Of a stretch of 64,000 nt of DNA, positions 2,351 through 63,429 are shown piece after piece. The notes under the pieces were generated by a model, which was given only the letters and a program-made list of their open reading frames with translations, had not been told where the DNA came from and made no database searches. Position 1 is the stretch's first letter. Each line of letters begins with the position of its first letter. This stretch comes from Rhea pennata (taxonomy: Eukaryota; Chordata; Aves; Rheiformes; Rheidae), in assembly GCF_028389875.1 (NCBI RefSeq), contig NC_084664.1:37396323-37460322 (forward strand). Direction: 5' to 3'. The position numbers were made by a program, and so were the translations under genes.

Positions 2351-5300
2351 TTTGGACAGATACAACACATTTTTAATGATTTCTTTTTTTTTAAGCTTCT
2401 TAAAACAGCACTTAGTCACGATGCATCTAGGAAGATGCTGGTGTACTGAGAAATATCAGACCAAGATTTACCTACAGACATAGCTAAGAATTCTCTTCTT
2501 TCTTAGTATCATCTTATTTTTTATTTTGGCTGTTCGAAAACACCGTGCTGAGGGGTATTTGTTTCCAAATTTTGCTTTAAATTCATCCTTAAAAAAATAT
2601 CATGATTGGGCACTTAAATGTCTATTTCCTTCAAAGATTTCAAGAATGAAACCAAAAGAGGAGAAAAGGAAAATAGAAGTTGCCTAGATATTGTTATAGA
2701 TTGAATTTCTGGGAGAAGAAATAAGTAGATTCCTAGAAATTAAACAGTATCACATTTGGTGTTCTTCTCACCCATTCATGTAATAAGAATGTATTATTTG
2801 GTTTAATTTTACCACCTGCTCAGTTATTTCATCTTGAAAAAATAAAAAAAAAAAAAGAAAGACATTTTTTCTTTGGACATTTCCTTGGGCAAAGTTTATG
2901 ACAAAATATCTGATCATTTGGTGATGACTTTAAATCATACAATTCTTCCACCAGCCAGATAGAAAATAAAAAGTGTCAGTGAAGACATGCATAGAGGAAA
3001 AAGTGGATCCTCTTCCAGCAGAAATTTCAACTAGACCAGAAAGATCTTTCATCACGCAGATTTTATTGAAACAAAACCTATTTGTTCTACTGAAAGGAGT
3101 GTATTGCAGTAAAAGATGTGAAGGCTTATTTAGTTGATAATTTTACAATAATCAACTTGCTTTGCCAGAGACGTCTCAAGCAATTAGGAATATACCCTGG
3201 AAAAGAGGGGCACAGTATGCATACCCGCACAGTTTGCTGAAGGGCTGAGGATAGCTGCACCATCTTCCCACACCCAAGACACGGAGGAAGCCCTTTCTCA
3301 TTGCATGGCAGCCTCTGAAGCAGAAGTCAGCAGAAGAAGCAGTTTTATTGTGGAGTTTCTTATACTTTCACACTTCCTGCTAGAGGATGAGCGGGAAGGT
3401 AAACAGCAGCATCTAGTAAGAGAGCATCTAGTAATTTATTGAACAAGAAGCTGCATTTGTTTCTTCTGTAGAAAAGCCTGTCTCTAGCCAATTTCCTCTT
3501 TGAGGACACTACTGCAGTTCAGTCCTCCCTCAAATGAAATCTCCTCCTAAGAACACCTACTTATTTTTGCATCTATCCTGATCAAGTCTAAGCAATGACA
3601 TTTGATGGAATGGTTGGGGAAGTGCTCATTATAGAAAGTTTATATAGGGGATGCATCACGAGGACACAGCCAGCTTAGAGCCCATTTTGGTAGATGCTGG
3701 ACATGTATCACGTTCATTGCTCTGAAGCACTGGAGCTCTTCACCTGCCTATGTACTGTGTGACTCTGAGGCAGACGGTTACAGAAGAAGAACTGAATGAC
3801 AGGCTTTATGTACTATCTAGGAGCTTTCCCCCATTCCACTTTCTTTCCCCAAGGAAGGAAAATGCTCACCACAGAAGAATAAAATTTTAACAGTAAAGCT
3901 AGCATGGCTAGTGAAGTAAAAGTAGGCGTTGACTTTGCAGTAAGTTAGTAAGGTGGGGGAAGCAGAGTTGCTGGGACAGCCGTCCTCTGCTATGCTACAT
4001 TCACATCCTTCCTGGGCACATCACTGTCTTTTTAGGCATTACAAAGTCTTGTTGGATATATTTGTGCAGTCAGGGACTACACAATCCAATGAGGGATTGC
4101 AGGATGGCAGGAACAGAACAGCACAATTTATAAGGAGAAAAATACTTGAAAGGAGCCTTAGAAAGTGTACTGAGTAACTCAGCATTCAAGTTTATACTGC
4201 TCCTGTGATTTCGGTTTGCATGCCTAAGTTCTTGAGGCAAATAACTTAGCTTTCGACCGATCTTTGCCAGCTTAATTTAGTAATATTTTTAGAACAAGGT
4301 GGTTTTGAACACTGTCTCCAATGAATTAGGTACAAACATGTAAGTATGCATGAAGTTGTTTCATAAATCTTTAAAAAAATATTTAGGCTCAATGAATGCT
4401 TTGTTTCTAGGGTGTCACAAACTGCTGTTTTTTTCAAAAGACTGCTTGTTTGACAAGTGGTCAACACCCCTATTTCAAACTGGTTGTGTTTAATCTGCAG
4501 ACAAAATAGTCTTTCTTCTGAAACTAATTCTCTAGTATTAATTGATCTGAGCTGAAGCTATATACAGCAGTGCAAACTTTTTTCTAGTGATTGACAAGAG
4601 TATGGTGTACTGCCAGCATGCTGGGATATTGGTAGTCTTCACTGCACCTCTCCTTTGTTATGGTGCCCCCTCAGATGCTTGCACCATGAGCAGAGAAGAA
4701 TTGTGCTCAAAATTCCCTGGAAAAGCACGGCTTTGGGTAAGAACTGAGCTGCACTTGCATTTCAGGAGTTGCTGAGCGCTGAGATTTTAAAGCAGCCAGT
4801 AGGTTTCTTTTCTAAGTAGTAACTCTGTTTCTTTGTACCATATGGTTATGTTTAATGTGCTCTGCTGAGGGAGAGCTTTCAAGTCTAGCGGTATTTTCAA
4901 TACCAGAAAAGAAGTGGCTTCCTAATCAAACAGGTCTGAGCATACTATAATTTTGAAGAAATTGCATTGTTTCCAGAATGTCACTTTATCTGCTTTAAAT
5001 GTGTTCCTTTAAAAGCTGTTTAGTCTATCTTTGCAAATAAGCTATGATTACGGTTGTTGAGGTTGACTAAATAAACCTTTTGTTTATTAACATATGGACA
5101 GATTGAATTTCTTAATTGCTGGATTCACTACAACTGAGCTGAGCTGAAAATTAATTGAAATAAATAATCCTCCTCCCAATTCTCTGTTCTGCATCAGATA
5201 AAAATGTGAATAAGGTGCTTAGCCTTATTTCCCCCAAGATCAGATATTCTCAAGTATTTTAATTTCTCATGTCTTCAGATTGTTGGTAGCCCACTACCTC

Positions 5301-40926: not shown

Positions 40927-40970
40927 GGTTCATTGGTTCACTCTTCTGTGACTCAAAGTTGGATCAAAGG
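40927..40970 (+). promoter_or_regulatory. Candidate DR2 RARE with adjacent TCF/LEF site
   Basis: The plus strand reads GGTTCA-TT-GGTTCA at 40927-40940, a perfect direct repeat with two-base spacing. Twenty-two bases on is GATCAAAGG (40962-40970), whose complement CCTTTGATC is a full TCF/LEF consensus. HOXA 3' enhancers in mouse answer to both retinoic acid and Wnt, so the pairing is suggestive. Confidence 0.45.
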
Positions 40971-43900: not shown

Positions 43901-44799
43901 TGACAGGATAACTAAAAAATGTCTGTAATTGGAACCCTGAACACCTGAACTTCAAAAAAGGGTAAGTGTCAAAATACTGTAAATTCATCTTCAGGTCTAA
44001 TAACTTGAACAGCTCCTTTGCTGTAAAATATCTTTGTTTAGGCAGTATATCGCACAAGTCTTCCTAGCAGGATCTTGGATAAGGCGAGCTGGTGTTCTGC
44101 CTTTTAATCTTTTTAGCACTGTGACTCTGTAATTTGATATTTATTGTCTTTAACTCTAGAATCCCACAACATTGTGAATTCATTTTGATGTCTGACACCA
44201 GGTGAGGGATGAACATTGCTTCTCTGGTGTTGTAGTGCTATAGCTGACGACTGCAAGTGTTTTGATAAATCAAATCCTTTAAGATTATCTTTTATAAAGA
44301 AAATCGAGTGAATTAAGACTATTTAGATAGTGTGACAGATAAATTATCAGAGAAACTGTGATATACAGAAAAGATTTAGAAAGATTTAGGACCCAGGGTA
44401 TGGTGATATTTTTAAAATTTCACACAAGTCGAGATGACAAACAGATGGCACAGTTAAGAAAATCTAGAAGGCAAAATATAAGCCCCATGTTACTTTAATG
44501 ATACCTCTGCTTATCACAGCCTATATTATAGATCAGCTTATAAAGTATTTTTCTAAATCATAAAACTCTCTTGAGCTCTATTTTCTAAAGACAAACTGGT
44601 CTGTAAAGCAGCATCAGTCAAGCGCAAGATTAATTCCTGTTGTACCAAGTTGTTGTTTTTGGCACAGAAGTCAATATTTATAAGACAGAAAGCAGCTGTA
44701 GTGTGCAAGTTAGCATAGTGCATAAATCTTTGCGGCAGGTTATAGCAAGATTATGGTACTATCCACAGGTAATACGATAGAAGCATTGCCACAGCAGAG
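40971..44799. other. Gene desert, no gene seen
   Basis: AT-rich sequence with a T-rich (TTTG)n tract (42789-42830). A patch at about 43743-43860 may be an old interspersed repeat. Weak CTCF-like motifs lie at 42030-42043 and 44438-44451. Confidence 0.6.
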
Positions 44800-44945
44800 C
44801 CTTCCTAATGGTGGTCATCCATTTACCAGTGTGAGCCATGCTAATGAGGTCACGCTGACTCACTTCATGTCATTTCCCCTTTGGAAGCAATCAGACCAAA
44901 TATAAACCGGTAATATATTAAAAGAGGTCACAAAGCACAGTAGTT
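44800..44945. promoter_or_regulatory. Candidate regulatory element with half-site cluster
   Basis: Within 120 bp lie TGGTCA (about 44812), a POU-type ATGCTAAT (44838-44845), AGGTCA (44847-44852), GCTGACTCA resembling an AP-1/half-MAF site (44854-44862) and another AGGTCA near 44926. The sequence is unique and repeat-free. Function is inferred. Confidence 0.35.
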
Positions 44946-46489
44946 CGTTAAGAGCGAGCTGTTTGTATAGGACTCCGAGCCAGATTTAAGCTTGCCCGGA
45001 GCAATAGGACGTGTGGCTCCCGACAACAGGGCCTGGGAAGGAGATTAACCCCCCAGCCCCTAGAAAGCTGTCCGAGGTGCAACACTGCTCTGGCGTGCAG
45101 TGCTCCAGCCGGCTTCTCTCATTCACTGTGCTGCCTCATCCTTCGGCACCAGGGCAAGGCAGGTGGCTTAACTCTGAATTTTAATTCCGCTGATTGCAGC
45201 TTTTGCCCCCTGCCTGGCATAGACAGACCCTTGGGCAGCTGTGGGGCAGCTGGAGAAGCCAAGGCAGCTGCAGCACCAGGAGCCCCATTAGCCTGGTGAG
45301 TCTGCTGGGTGCCTCCCCTGCAGCAGGTCCTACTTCCCCTCACAGCCACAGCAGAAGCCGGTCCTCAAGGGACATGCTGTGCTGCGTCTCCCCCATTTCT
45401 CAGCCCCTCTCGCACAGATGGCAGTGGGGTGTGTTATTCATCATGCTGCAAGTTTTTGTTGCAGGAGATGGGACATGATCTCAAGCCCACTGAGGCCAAC
45501 AGTACTGTGCCCCATTGCTTGCCCTGGGTTTCTCATCGATGCTGAGCTCCAGGTTGAGGGGCTTGGCAGGGGCCATTCGGCATCAAGTCACTCACCGCTG
45601 AGCACCTCCCTCCATGCTGAGCGCTGCCCTACAGCAACAGGACACCCGTTCTCCCTCTCCTCCAGAAAGCCACGTCAGAGCCACAGCACAGTCAGCAGGG
45701 AAGTCCGGGGACTGAGGGCAGTGGGCTTGGTGGCCAAGCCCCTCGGGCATGCCCCTTCACTTCCCAGCCTCAGTATCCATGCCTCTTTTATTCTCCTTCA
45801 TAGCATGCAATGAGCTCCACAGATGAGAGGCTAGAGCTGATCTAATTTTAATGCACTAGGCTACTGCTGCCTGCATTTTCATCAGCCTTTTTTCCTGTGC
45901 TGAAAATAAGAATATTAGAGTCTACCTAGCTACAATATTATTCTTTGGACTAGAGGTGAAGAAAGTTCAAACGAAAAGGTACTTGGCTATTTCTTTCCCT
46001 TCTTGGGAATCCTGGCACACCAAATTTTGCTCTTCTGGCACTGCTCGCATGAGTGCAGCTAGTCATAGATGAGACCGTACACAGTTTCAGGCCTGTGGCT
46101 TTCTCTCTAACCACTATTGCTTTCATTCTGACATTCTCAGCCTCACTTGGCCAAATTATATGTGGTTTGGGGCAAAGATATTAGAAATTTAACAACAAAT
46201 AGATGCAGATTGAGCCCACATGGGAAGCATGAAATACAGCAGAAATATGCAAGTTCATTATCTGAATTTATCCGCACTCATTCTGTGTGCTTTATAAATT
46301 TGAGTAGCACGATCATCTGTTTCATTCCTAGAAGAGAAAAAGCTAGCAAATATGAATTCCTTGAAATAGGCAGTGGAAAGCGATTGACTTGAAATCAACG
46401 AAACAGTAGAAATTGAATTTTCCTGGCAAGATTTGCTTGTGTTGTTCATCAAATAAATGTGCGTTATGTCTTGCACTGTTACTCAGCTG
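44946..46489. other. Moderately GC-rich noncoding stretch
   Basis: GC rises at about 45000-45800 and produces several overlapping open frames up to 144 codons on the plus strand. Their composition (Pro, Ser, Leu, Cys) and the lack of a domain argue against a gene. Confidence 0.55.
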
Positions 46490-46840
46490 TGATCTTATAA
46501 TGTGCTCCCTGCATCCTGTCAGACATACGATCCTTTGTCCCGTAATAGACCCAACTATCTCCCGACCAGCTGAGCTCAGGGTCAGCCCAGGGTCATGCTG
46601 GTTAAAGATGCCTGTCAGTTCACTGCCTGAGTCACAAACGCGCTTTAAATCACCTTTATCTTACTTACGTTGATGCTTTCCAGCAAGAGGCTACAGCGGT
46701 AGCCGCAGCATCTAGGTACCGCGTTGCAAAATGTTTAGCGGCATCCCTGAAAATTTCGCTTTGGATATGCAGATGCCATGCATAGCTCGAAGTGAAATAT
46801 GAAATAAGAACTGTTTCAGATACCTTTATGTGAGGTAGAT
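46490..46840. promoter_or_regulatory. Candidate enhancer with a perfect DR5 RARE
   Basis: The plus strand at 46579-46595 reads GGGTCA-GCCCA-GGGTCA. Both half-sites fit RGKTCA exactly, with the five-base spacing preferred by RAR/RXR. An AGTTCA half-site (46617-46622), a MEIS-type CTGTCA overlapping it and an AP-1 TGAGTCA (46628-46634) follow within 40 bp. The block is unique, holds scattered CpGs and lies about 12 kb beyond the HOXA1 stop codon. Enhancer function is inferred. Confidence 0.55.
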
Positions 46841-49800
46841 AAATATTATGGTTCTTATCCATCCTGCAAATGAAAATAAAAATTCAGAGGACTGGCCATC
46901 ACCTTTCAGGTCAGAAATACAGATATTACTTAGCCTAAAATTTCCTGCAAAAAAGAATGTTTGCATAAGGAGGCCTGATAATCTGGGAAATGTATCACTT
47001 GATGTTTTTATTGTGATAAATACCTCCCTTCAGCTCCTGATGCTATACAACTTCTTAATGTTTGTCGCCAGTCTCTAAGGTATAGAAGAAAGACAGGCCT
47101 TAATTGTAAATTTACACATGCTTTATTGCTGGTGCAATGGCATGAGCACATTTAACAGGATTGTCATGCCAGTTAATTATGCCGATTCTGACACGTACCT
47201 ATCACTGCTGAAATTGATAGTGCCTTTCGAGCGGTTCGCACCATCGCAATATGCTGCATCTTTCTAAGGTTAAGTGTGTTAGGGGCCAGAGGACGGCAGG
47301 AGAAAGAACCCCTGCATGCTAAGTATGTGCCACTAGCCAAACAGCAAAACCTCCTTTTAAGAGAAATGTAATCAGCCTCAGTCCACCTGCCCTGGGCAAA
47401 GACGACAATCTTCATTACACTCAATATTAAGCAGTACCTTCCCAGGCCTTCAGAAACTCTTGGCCTTGTTTACAGCAGGTAATACCCAAACAGATGGTAA
47501 CACTTATTAAAGATATTAAAGCAGAAGAGAAGACGGCAGAAAAGGAGGCAACTATTAGAGAACACTTTGTGGCAAGGGCAAGAACATTTTCTATGTTTTC
47601 CCTGCAGCAGGAGTCTGAGTCTCTGAATTTCAGGCCGAAGGAAATGGGGGAAGCCTTGAAATCAACAGCAAACCACAAACCAATATTAAATGAGAGTAAA
47701 ACACCATCCTCACCCTAATCAGCATTATCATGACTCAGATCAAAACCTCAACTTAAAACTTCATACTGAAAAGGCAGATAGACATGCTAGGAAACGGTAT
47801 ATCCTCCCTTCCCTCCCACATGACCTAATATAGATATTTTAGGACATTCCAGAAAGGAAATGGAGGTACATATATGTTATATATACACCTAGTTGACAAG
47901 GATAATGTTTTAAGATTGTCTGAATTGGAGGAAGAGAGGGAAGGAAGGATGGAAGAAAGGAGAGAAAGGAGGAAAGGAGGGAGAAAGGAAAGAAAGGAAG
48001 GAAAGGGAAGAGAAGAAGAGAGGAAGGAAGCAAGCAGAGAAAATACTGCATGCTTTTATAGAAAACAAAAAATCTTCAGTTACCCATTTTTTATCAAGTG
48101 ACTCATGTAGTTTTTAAAGAAAAGCAAGCATTTATGTATACAGAGTTACATTAAAAAAAGCATAAAGCCATGGATGGTGGGATCCAAGCTTGAGTAAACA
48201 ATGCAGAAATTCAGAAGAAGGGATCATAAAAGAACAGCAACACTTTTGGATGATTTCCAGTGAAATGTAACTTGCACACTTCATGCATCACAGCAATTTC
48301 AATGGGAAAGGAGGAGATATCCCCACAGGAGTCACAGCATAAAACACGCCAGCAGCTAGGGTTCTCCCTTCTCTGCCCATTCCCTGATCGCAGGCAGCCA
48401 GGGCAGCAGACTCACCTCTGCTGCCCACTGCCCGCAGCCAATGTCCTTGGTGACAGTGGCAGCACTGACCAGCTGAACTCCTGCATGGTTGCTTTCCTCC
48501 TTGCCCTATGGCAGCCTTGCCCTGTTCATTACCTTTCTCCTAACAAAAATTTTTGCAATGTCTCATCTTTGGAGTGTTGCCAGAATTCATTTTGCTGGTA
48601 AAGAAAAAGTAGTATTTTCAGTAGCAGTCTGGCTAAGTATGTTCACTCCTCCTTGCCATTAAATGGATCTTCCCACGTGATGTTTAAAGGAATGTCCTTG
48701 AGATCTGGCCGACAGGATCTTTGGAGCAGACTGAAGTGCCGCTTTTGGACAAATTAACATCAAGCAGGTATGCTTCAAGACAGAGCCACTGACAGTCTTC
48801 ATTCCTTTCTCTCTTTCCTCTTTGAGCTCAGATATTATTTACTCCATGGGTAGTGACTTTGGAGCTACTTTCACAGTTCTTTCTCTGACAAACTTCCCGT
48901 TGAAACTGGTAGGCTTTTTATGTAGCAGCAGTATAGCAGGACCTAACCTTCTGTGATGAAAGAAAATTTTCTATTCGAGACATGTTGACATTTTTTACTT
49001 TAGATATTTTACTACAATAAGAAAAGGCCTACCCTCTGAGAATGACATGATAAATCTTAGATTATTTAATGTCCATTTAAATACAGATCATTTGTTTTTC
49101 AAAGCATGATATTTATTCCTTGCCCTGGAGAATGCCTAGAAAAGAATAAAGCTAAATTTACGACTCAAACTGGACTCTATTATGTTTAGTGCTCTTGCTC
49201 CAAAGTGATATGGAACAGCACTAAATGAAAGACCTGCTTTAAGGACAAAAACATGAGCAAAGATGTCTTGTTCTCATAAATCCCAAAAGACACACCCATG
49301 CACCCAGATATCACTCTGCTCATTTAACTTGGACACTTTGGACATTTGAGCATGCAAGGTAGCTATCAAAGATGCTTTACAGAGGAGAGTAGCTGTCCGA
49401 ATTTTTGCTGTGAGCTTTCTTTTCCCTCTGGAAAGACCACACCAGGGGTACAGAAGAGTAGGGACATGGCAGAGCAGCACAGTGACCATCACATCACATA
49501 GCTGGAAGGTGCATGCTGCCCAAGAGGAACGGGTGATGTTCCTCTAGTCTCTGCTCAGCAAGTATACACCTGAGTGCGCTTAATATTTCTCATCTCATCT
49601 GTGGGTCATCTTTTTGGTTTCTAAGAGGAAAGGAATTTTATGAAATAAAGACCTAAGGGCTGGAAATGTATGTGCAAAGGGGTGGGGGGAGGAGGAGGAG
49701 TGTGACAAACCTCACAGCCCATGTGAAAGGTTGTTTTGCTTCTAGACCGAAGGGGAGGAGGCCTGATCCTGCTCCCACGCTAGATAAGCAGATATCCTGC

Positions 49801-52839: not shown

Positions 52840-53425
52840 CGGTGATGCCGCTCTGGGACGAGCGAGCAGAGCCGCAGCCTCCCAGCCAGCCTGCGTAAAG
52901 CTCCGTCGGCGCCACTCTCGGGCGGGGGGCTGCTCCATCGCCTGCTCCCCACCGGGTCCCGTCCTGCCTGCCCCGGGGGGCAGCTGGGAACCCTCCCTGC
53001 CCGCCCCCGCCTTGGAGAGGGCACTGAGGGGAACAGCCCCCCCCCGGGGTGCGGGGCTCCTCCGCGCCTCCTCTCCAGCTCTGTCCCGGCCGCGAAGAGC
53101 CCGTGTTCCCTCTCCTCCCAGCGCGCCGCTTTTAGCTATCTCCGGCTTGGCTCAGGGCGAGCCCTCTGCCAGCGGCCCCGTGTCATGTGCAGGCCGGAGC
53201 CGTGCGCGCCCCGCGGTATTTATCGGCCACCAGCGCGGGTGGCGCTACTTGCGCTCGGTAGCGAGCGGCCCGCAGGAGGTGCGTGGGAACGGACTGCCCC
53301 GGGCCCCGCGCCCACCCGCGGCCTCAGGCGGCGCGGCAGGTCCGCTCCGCGCCCGCGGGGCTGGGCCGCCTCGGCGGGGCTCTGCGCTGTCGCCGGGCGC
53401 ACAACGAATTTTCGTTGCGTGAGTC
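52840..53425. other. CpG island 5-6 kb beyond HOXA1
   Basis: About 585 bp rise sharply to high GC with many CpGs within an AT-rich flank. An imperfect hairpin, GCCACC AGCGCG GGTGGC, lies near 53226-53243, and a CAACGAA/TTCGTTG inverted pair at 53402-53417. A 224-codon open frame crosses it on the plus strand, but its Ala/Pro/Arg/Gly make-up looks compositional. An isolated island this close to HOXA1 suggests a promoter, perhaps of a noncoding RNA. Confidence 0.7.
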
Positions 53426-55559: not shown

Positions 55560-55930
55560 ATTGTTGCCTTTACCACCGCACTGAGATTAACCACTGGGAC
55601 TTATTCTAAAGTGACCCATCACTGAATTCATTTCTGCTTGAACTTTCGGTGAACCTGAGATTAAAGAGAGGAGAGCAGCTAAGCAGTTTGTTGTTAGCTG
55701 CCTTTTCAACAGCCCTTTCAGACTGAGTAAATATTGATCGGTTTCAATCTGATTGCCCCAGAGGAAAACACCAAAGCATCTCAATAGCCTCCAAAAGTAA
55801 ACTTTAAAGGTGAACAGCAGAAATGGCCTTAAGTATGATAGGAAGATGCTAAACTCCATCTGACAATTGGACACAGTTTGGTTTGTGGGGTTTTTTGTTT
55901 GTTGCATTTTCTCTCGCTGAGACTCTAGAG
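55560..55930 (-). promoter_or_regulatory. HOXA1 3' retinoic acid enhancer
   Basis: This is the 3' neural enhancer of HOXA1, about 3 kb beyond its stop codon. Its core is a DR5 at 55655-55639 reading GGTTCA-CCGAA-AGTTCA on the minus strand, identical in half-sites and spacer to the mammalian Hoxa1 3' RARE as I recall it (described by Langston and Gudas). A further GGGTCA half-site lies at 55612-55617. RAR/RXR bound here drives early HOXA1 expression in the neural tube in mouse. The borders given are approximate. Confidence 0.85.
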
Positions 55931-57615: not shown

Positions 57616-57621
57616 TTTATT
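57616..57621 (-). terminator. HOXA1: HOXA1 polyadenylation signal AATAAA
   Basis: The plus strand reads TTTATT, so the transcript reads AATAAA. A GU-rich stretch follows about 25-35 nt downstream. I saw no better canonical signal between here and the stop codon. Confidence 0.75.
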
Positions 57622-58690: not shown

Positions 58691-60121
58691 TCAGTTTGAG
58701 GTAGCAAGAGTGTCTGAGGTAGAGGAGGCTGGCGAGGCAGTGCAGGGCGACGAGCAGGACTTCTCTGATGACTCTTCCGCTTTCTCCTCACAGCCCGTGG
58801 GGGTGGTAGGGGAGATGGGTAGCAGTCCCTCCTTCTCTCTTTTCTTCTGCTTCATCCTGCGGTTCTGGAACCAGATCTTGACCTGCGTCTCGTTGAGTTG
58901 CAGGGAGGCTGCAATCTCCACTCTCCTGGCCCTGGTCAGGTACTTGTTGAAATGAAACTCTTTCTCCAGTTCTGTGAGCTGCTTGGTGGTGAAATTAGTT
59001 CTGACTGTGTTGGGCTGCCCTACGAAGCCGTACTCGCCAGCCTTTCCTGCAAAAGGGGACATTCAGCGTTAAATAAGCGCAAATGATTTATAGGCGACGT
59101 AATCAATATGTCCACACTGGCTAAGCGATAGGGAGCAAGAACTTCTTAGGATAAGAGGGAAGCCCCGGCAGGGTGAGTGATGGAGTGCGAGGTGCTAAAC
59201 CGGAGTCAGCCTCTAGTGTCAGAGGAAACTTGATAAGTGGTTTATGAATTACAAGAAATATGACCGCGGGGAGGGGGGGGGGGGGTGGAGGCAGGCACAA
59301 GCAGCCCTGACTCTGAGCGCAGCGGGCAGGCGGCGGCGGCTGCTCTCAGAGGTCTCGGCAGCTTTACCTGCAAAGCAAGCGGACGGGACACCTGTGCGCG
59401 GCCAGCCGCGGCGGCTGCGCCCCGCCTCGCCTTGCCCTTGCCGACGGCCGACAGAGAAACGAGCTCGCCTCCCTCCCCGGCCCTCCTGCCCTGCAGCCGG
59501 GGACTAACCTGTTTTGGGTGGGTTTCTCTTCACTTTCATCCAGTCAAAGGTCTGCGCGGGCGGCGAGGTCTCCGCCGACGGGGAGCGGGCGTTTTCCTGG
59601 TGGCTGGCGTGGAGAGGAGACAGGGCATGGTTATAGGTGCCCAGCGGCAGGCTCTGCTGCTCCTGTCCGTAGGGGGGGTGCACGTACTGAGCGGGCCCCC
59701 CCGCGTAGCCCTGGTGCGGGTGCTGCGCGGCGGCGGAGGCGGAGAGGCTCCCCGAGTACACCGCGGGCGCGCAGGGGGGGAAGCCCGCGCCGAGCTCCGC
59801 GTCCTGCCCCAGGGGGTAGGGGCTGTACGCCGTGCCGAAGCCCTGCGCACCGTACGTCGGGCCGCAGCCGGCGTGCGAGTAGGAGACCCCCAGGCTGCCG
59901 TGGGGCTGGTAGGCGGCGGGCTGGGCCGGGGGGTGGGGAGGGTGGCGGTGGGGGCTGATCTGCACCCCGCGGCCCACGAGGAAGCGGTCCTCCCCGCTGC
60001 AGCTGCCGGCGCTGACGGCGCAGGGCTGGAAAGTTGTAATCCCGTGGTCGGGGTGGTAGGCGCGGGCGGCGCAGCCCCCCGCCTCGCCGCCGAGGACGGG
60101 GTACTCGAGGAAGGAGCTCAT
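58691..60121 (-). CDS. HOXA1: HOXA1 homeodomain transcription factor, two coding exons
   Basis: This is an anterior HOX transcription factor of the nucleus that patterns the hindbrain, acting with PBX and MEIS partners. The coding sequence joins 60121-59509 (exon 1) to 59046-58691 (exon 2), giving 322 residues; human HOXA1 has 335. The junction is CAG|GTTAGT ... TTTTGCAG|GA and splits a Gly codon. The PBX-binding hexapeptide variant TFDWM lies at about residues 191-195, just before the intron. The homeodomain spans about residues 216-275, with Gln50 and Asn51 in the WFQN motif of helix 3. The N-terminus (MSSFLEYP) matches the second Met of human HOXA1; the codon matching the first human Met is CGC and an in-frame TGA lies two codons upstream, so 60121 is the first possible ATG. 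The human poly-His run is replaced by [10 protein letters not shown] (56-65). The tail is Ser-rich. Identity is very secure; the exact N-terminus awaits RNA evidence. Confidence 0.97.
58697..58722 (-). promoter_or_regulatory. Two let-7 8-mer seed sites across the last HOXA1 codons
   Basis: The mRNA reads CTACCTCA twice, at 58722-58715 and 58704-58697. These are 18 nt apart and end four bases before the stop codon (58693-58691). Each is a full 8-mer match to the let-7 seed. They fall in Ser-Thr-Ser and Ala-Thr-Ser codons, so they could be a by-product of a Ser/Thr-rich tail. Function is inferred only. Confidence 0.5.
59047..59508 (-). other. HOXA1: HOXA1 intron
   Basis: This single intron separates the hexapeptide-coding exon from the homeodomain exon, as in other HOX genes. 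On the minus strand it starts GTTAGT (59508-59503) and ends in a pyrimidine stretch plus TTTTGCAG (59047). It contains a long G run on the plus strand near 59270-59285, which is a C run in the RNA. Confidence 0.95.
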
Positions 60122-62949: not shown

Positions 62950-63429
62950 GAGAGTACACGCTTATTGCAATCCAATTTAAGCCAGTGCCACAGGAGTTAA
63001 AATATCGGTGAGGCTGCTTGCTTTCCGCAGAGCCGGGACTGGAGCAGAGAGAAGGACAAGAAGCAGGGCGGAGGTTTCGCCGCGTCCGCAGCTCAGCCAA
63101 GCTGTTGTTTTAAAAGAGCAATAAAAATGAATTATGACTAAACGCCTTCTCACTTAATGGTTTTAGACGGGGATCCCCAGCCCCGGCAAATACGTAAGAG
63201 GATTTTTATTTGTGCATGTGTTCCTGCAATTGATCTCTTTGATGACATTCTCATTCATAGAAAGAGTTTGATTTATGACTTTCGGAAGAATTGCGTTCAG
63301 CCTTTCCAGCTATAACCCACGCAGCTCAGCTCCACAACGTGTTGCAGAGCTGGTAGACAGCCCTCCTCGCACGAACGGGCAGCGAAGTGCCTTCCCCAGC
63401 CCCTCGCTCAGGCTGCGCTCTCGTGTGCA

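Follow-up and report, generated by a model that had tools for sequence, protein, structure and literature searches.

The perfect direct repeat that lies 3' of HOXA1 in Rhea pennata is probably a bindable DR5 with no dedicated role as a second retinoic acid (RA) response element (RARE) enhancer of HOXA1. The repeat consists of two GGGTCA half-sites around a GCCCA spacer (GGGTCAGCCCAGGGTCA) and is found on the plus strand at positions 46579-46595 of the window, by which we mean the whole stretch of 64,000 nucleotides analysed here (C2:37396323-37460322 of a genome of 1.27 Gb in 180 contigs). It agrees with RGKTCA-N5-RGKTCA, the sequence definition of a DR5 RARE, at 12/12 half-site positions, which bears out the description of a perfect-consensus DR5 given in the initial annotation of this DNA. 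On DR5 elements RXR occupies the 5' half-site and RAR the 3' half-site, and an RXR:RAR heterodimer could bind the candidate in this same arrangement. The candidate would then be one of several thousand perfect DR5s that have arisen by chance, open at most to opportunistic binding, and most likely it has no enhancer role. What stands of the initial reading is a consensus DR5 of which no other copy was found, placed within the regulatory flank of a gene cluster that responds to RA; what finds no support is that the site is stronger than the classical HOXA1 3'RARE and that its presence goes beyond chance for this class of motif. HOXA1 is an early RA-responsive Hox gene, and RA/Hox patterning has classically been studied in birds. 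If the candidate were a working site, it would mean a further RA input to HOXA1 and a turnover of RAREs beside one that is deeply conserved, and if it is non-functional, it makes a clear case of a perfect consensus being weak evidence, there being 3,182 such sites in the genome.

HOXA1 is encoded on the minus strand, where its homeobox-exon reading frame spans 58691-59062 with the end of the stop codon at 58691, and an AATAAA poly(A)-like signal follows at 57616. The candidate lies 12.1 kb past the stop codon, in agreement with the 12 kb reported initially, and 11.0 kb from the AATAAA. On the other side of HOXA1, six more Hox-type homeoboxes were found within the stretch fetched. On the 3' side, the closest exon match to a SKAP2 query sequence covers 19 residues (E 0.003) and lies near -30 kb in window coordinates, and a second follows near -42 kb (E 6e-6); the first exon of SKAP2 was not found in this search. 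A 260-kb stretch assembled around HOXA, with 252,897 called bases (referred to below as 253 kb), contains three perfect RGKTCA DR5s in all, and the candidate is one of them. Another, GGTTCACCGAAAGTTCA, at 55639-55655 on the minus strand, is the classical HOXA1 3'RARE, an enhancer reportedly described by Langston and Gudas in 1992 and by Dupe et al. in 1997 (cited in PMC4510006 and PMC6649716). It is identical at 17/17 positions to mouse chr6:52153426-52153442 in Table 2 of PMC7259794. The third, GGTTCAAGAAGAGTTCA, lies past the right end of the window at 77562-77578 on the minus strand and is the second conserved Hoxa1-linked RARE of the same table, with 17/17 positions shared with mouse chr6:52175533-52175549. 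Both Hoxa1-linked RAREs are marked in that table as conserved to bird and beyond.

The 3'RARE is the known element that the candidate resembles in being a perfect-RGKTCA DR5 located 3' of HOXA1 within the window. It differs from the candidate in lying on the opposite strand and in having other half-sites and another spacer, and it is conserved from mouse to frog with a mouse knockout behind it (PMC7259794). An alternative that we regard as possible but unlikely is that the candidate is a lineage-restricted second RARE. It would supplement the 3'RARE, serving HOXA1 and the neighbouring genes as a shadow enhancer in the early neural plate or paraxial mesoderm, and the DR5-bound RXR:RAR would work with a corepressor in the absence of RA and with a coactivator in its presence. 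Against it, the candidate is not among the published conserved Hoxa1 RAREs of PMC7259794, whose Table 2 holds two conserved Hoxa1 DR5s, both present in this genome. The scope of that table is limited to RAREs in the RA-regulated chromatin peaks of mouse trunk tissue, so that the absence of the candidate carries only moderate weight. In our full-text search of the open-licence literature the candidate 17-mer was absent as well, which is in keeping with the earlier statement that no description was known in birds, and the titles and abstract starts among the matches listed in this literature described no RARE at its position.

The exact 29-base context of the candidate occurs once in the genome, and a genome search with its surroundings (46300-47000) returned only the self-match, so that no second copy of these 701 bases was found at E<=10 with simple repeats and very common words skipped. 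When the wider region from 44500 to 49500 was searched with the same words skipped, the sole stretch returned with copies elsewhere was 47927-48042, which is GGAA-rich. With no second copy of the surroundings found, an origin of the candidate from a transposable element (interspersed repeat) has no support. An RNA gene at the candidate was rejected, as Rfam gave no match there. The window's sole Rfam match at gathering scores is HOTAIRM1_2, a conserved region of the HOTAIRM1 lncRNA, at 63082-63301 on the plus strand (226.8 bits). Prokaryotic contamination was also considered, and a 25-base exact search of prokaryote contigs, which is uninformative for vertebrates, gave no match.

For the RGKTCA DR5 class as a whole, the presence of the candidate is not beyond chance. 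Perfect RGKTCA DR5s number 3,182 genome-wide, and the same half-sites with a 6-base spacer are commoner, at 3,982. Since spacing 5 is no more frequent than spacing 6, for which we know of no special role, the class of perfect DR5s is probably made up mostly of chance occurrences. At the genome rate, 0.16 DR5s are expected in the window (P(>=1) 0.15), 0.22 in the 88.7-kb interval between SKAP2 and HOXA1 (P 0.20) and 0.63 in 253 kb (P 0.47). The expectation of 0.22 speaks against a second RARE, and, apart from the two known RAREs, a single additional DR5 in the region is unremarkable. Shuffling of the window gave an expectation of 0.13 DR5s and two DR5s in 0/100 shuffles, although the known 3'RARE accounts for one of the two in the window. 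The SKAP2-HOXA1 interval also holds at least one perfect pair at 13 of the 60 other spacings (0-60, minus 5). For mouse, significant RAR binding is reported to be absent from at least 150,000 DR2/DR5 matches of high similarity (PMC3091300). As a control we also counted reversed patterns, which gave 4,424 for the RGKTCA DR5, 896 for the GGGTCA DR5, and 5,588 and 436 for the respective DR6 forms. Because the reversed patterns consist of other base words, they were judged a poor control, and spacing 6 was used instead.

The homotypic form of the candidate is where the counts are more favourable to a second RARE. Genome-wide, GGGTCA pairs occur 131 times as DR5 and 273 times as DR6, both figures being inflated by tandem arrays; spacing 5 is again not in excess, which points to chance, and it is the rarity of the DR5 pairs (131 in 1.27 Gb) that counts in favour. 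The expectation for a GGGTCA-only DR5 in the SKAP2-HOXA1 interval is 0.009 (P 0.009), for a form that was chosen post hoc. GGGTCA half-sites do occur in the conserved RAREs of Table 2 in PMC7259794, and the conserved DR2 at Zbtb16 in the same paper, which is homotypic for GGGTCA, likewise favours a working site.

In order to compare the candidate with the 3'RARE on paper, we derived a scoring matrix from 9 of the 12 DR5s in the table of PMC7259794, leaving out the two HOXA ones and that of Rarb, which equals the 3'RARE. On the half-site matrix the candidate scores 18.25 compared to 18.73 for the 3'RARE, and on the matrix that includes the spacer it scores 21.48 compared to 21.41. Both sites fit the consensus fully and their scores are level on both matrices, and we therefore reject the initial claim that the candidate is the stronger of the two. 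Within 253 kb the candidate ranks third on half-sites, where the two known HOXA RAREs join it at the top, and first when the spacer is included; the known RARE at 77562 comes only ninth on the spacer matrix, which makes that matrix a rough guide. Against the candidate, its 3' half-site begins with G, whereas the conserved DR5s in the table have A at this base in 11/12 and G in 1/12. That a perfect DR5 scores together with two known HOXA RAREs, in surroundings of which no second copy was found, is nevertheless a point on the side of a second RARE.

A further difference between the candidate and the 3'RARE came from a within-genome test of conservation, in which the 20 kb 3' flank of each of HOXB1 and HOXD1 was compared with the 3' side of HOXA1. 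HOXB1 and HOXD1 were located through their homeoboxes, and their names were assigned by rank and position. A block around the 3'RARE (55623-55737) is shared with the HOXB1 3' flank (C26:2608360-2608476), with 65.5% identity over 119 columns and E values of 1.1e-7 and 4.2e-7 with a 701-bp query and 3.7e-5 with a 58.7-kb query. This block is the sole match below E=0.001 between the 58.7 kb HOXA1 3' flank and the 20 kb HOXB1 flank; the next best real matches have E values of 0.038 (HOXD, 53266-53397) and 0.10 (HOXB), and a reversed-flank control gave one match at E 0.28. The HOXB1 copy of the block carries a perfect DR5, GGTTCACACAAAGTTCA, at C26:2608376-2608392, 5.2 kb from the HOXB1 homeobox. 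We take this to be the known HOXB1 3' DR5 enhancer, which is said to have been described by Langston, Thompson and Gudas in 1997. Like the candidate it is a perfect DR5 on the 3' side of a group-1 Hox gene, but it corresponds to the 3'RARE and not to the candidate.

The candidate region (46200-47000) had no match in the 20 kb HOXB1 flank at E<=0.05, nor at E<=1, whereas the 3'RARE used as the positive control was recovered. The 20 kb HOXD1 flank gave one chance-level match to the candidate region (E=0.5), which lies outside the DR5; the 3'RARE control was not recovered in that flank, which leaves the HOXD1 comparison uninformative and a working positive control for HOXB1 only. The paralogue method thus picks up one RARE enhancer that is known and ancient, and the candidate appears to be without such a history, a pattern that is compatible with a younger amniote or bird element. 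The missing HOXB1 counterpart weighs against a second RARE. A narrower version, in which the candidate is a second RARE specific to birds or sauropsids and gives HOXA1 a shadow RA input gained after the HOXA/HOXB split, we consider slightly less probable still than a lineage-restricted second RARE in general. Should the candidate be non-functional, the element that matters, the 3'RARE, would have been recognised by its paralogue and not by its score.

The two paralogous RAREs each have a near-DR5 beside them. The one at HOXA1, AATTCAGTGATGGGTCA, lies at 55612-55628 on the minus strand, 10 bp from the 3'RARE, and the one at HOXB1, GGGTCAAGCCTGGGTCT, at C26:2608304-2608320 on the minus strand, 55 bp from its RARE, each with 11/12 half-site matches. 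Both are on the same side and strand of their RARE, and they fall outside the aligned block, partly at HOXA and wholly at HOXB. These near-DR5s may be parallel gains or chance occurrences.

A lack of conservation would be no proof of a lack of function, because the chick enhancer TCF15 Enh-2 has a functional RARA site in an element said to be unconserved in sequence (PMC7895974), and because conservation in mouse predicts RAR binding less well than does the occupancy of ES-cell factors (PMC3091300). Of the conserved RAREs in the table of PMC7259794, 19/24 fall within RAR ChIP peaks. TCF15 Enh-2 is an avian precedent that lends some weight to a second RARE, and it differs from the candidate in that its RARA site is needed and is backed by footprint, mutation and dCas9-KRAB (PMC7895974), while the candidate is known from its sequence.

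Work on the mouse locus points to RA control of Hoxa1 from its 3' flank, and to this extent it is in favour of a second RARE. Heater, about 50 kb 3' of Hoxa1, has RAR-bound regions at its flanks (PMC4510006). The Heater/Halr1 regions H-AR1 and H-AR2 resemble the candidate in having DR motifs in the 3' Hoxa1 flank; they differ in lying about 50 kb from Hoxa1, compared to 12 kb for the candidate, and in having several DR motifs and receptor occupancy. Distal RA-linked control of Hoxa1 was also shown by deletion of a mouse enhancer about 150 kb away, which lowers RA-induced Hoxa1 (PMC6649716); the authors mention three Rara peaks at this enhancer, with the data not shown there. Heterozygous loss of a further mouse enhancer brings Halr1 clearly down and Hoxa1 and Hoxa4 slightly down (PMC8643627).

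The initial annotation had also listed AGTTCA, MEIS-type and AP-1 motifs within 40 bp of the candidate, and all three are present on the plus strand. They are CTGTCA at 46612-46617, which we take to be a MEIS-type core, AGTTCA at 46617-46622, an extra single half-site, and TGAGTCA at 46628-46634, presumably an AP-1-type motif. Of 35,929 sampled positions, 10.4% have an RGKTCA half-site within 40 bp, 4.8% such a MEIS-type core and 0.65% the AP-1-type motif, and 6/35,929 have all three kinds, in a sample from which the candidate's own surroundings were not excluded. The combination is uncommon and would suit a second RARE, but it was picked post hoc from a large motif catalogue and is without a supporting spacing rule.

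A different nuclear receptor might also use the direct repeat, to repress or to compete and not to activate in response to RA, although we consider this improbable. NR2F1/2 accept direct repeats of varied spacing. RGKTCA half-sites are common to many receptors that pair with RXR (PMC6555819), which fits use by another receptor; on the other hand, RA-dependent activation by single direct repeats in mouse ES cells is strongest at spacing 5 (PMC8643627), the spacing of the candidate. As for other spacings in this locus, the sole perfect RGKTCA DR2 in 253 kb is GGTTCATTGGTTCA, which lies at 40927-40940 on the plus strand, 5.6 kb further out than the candidate.
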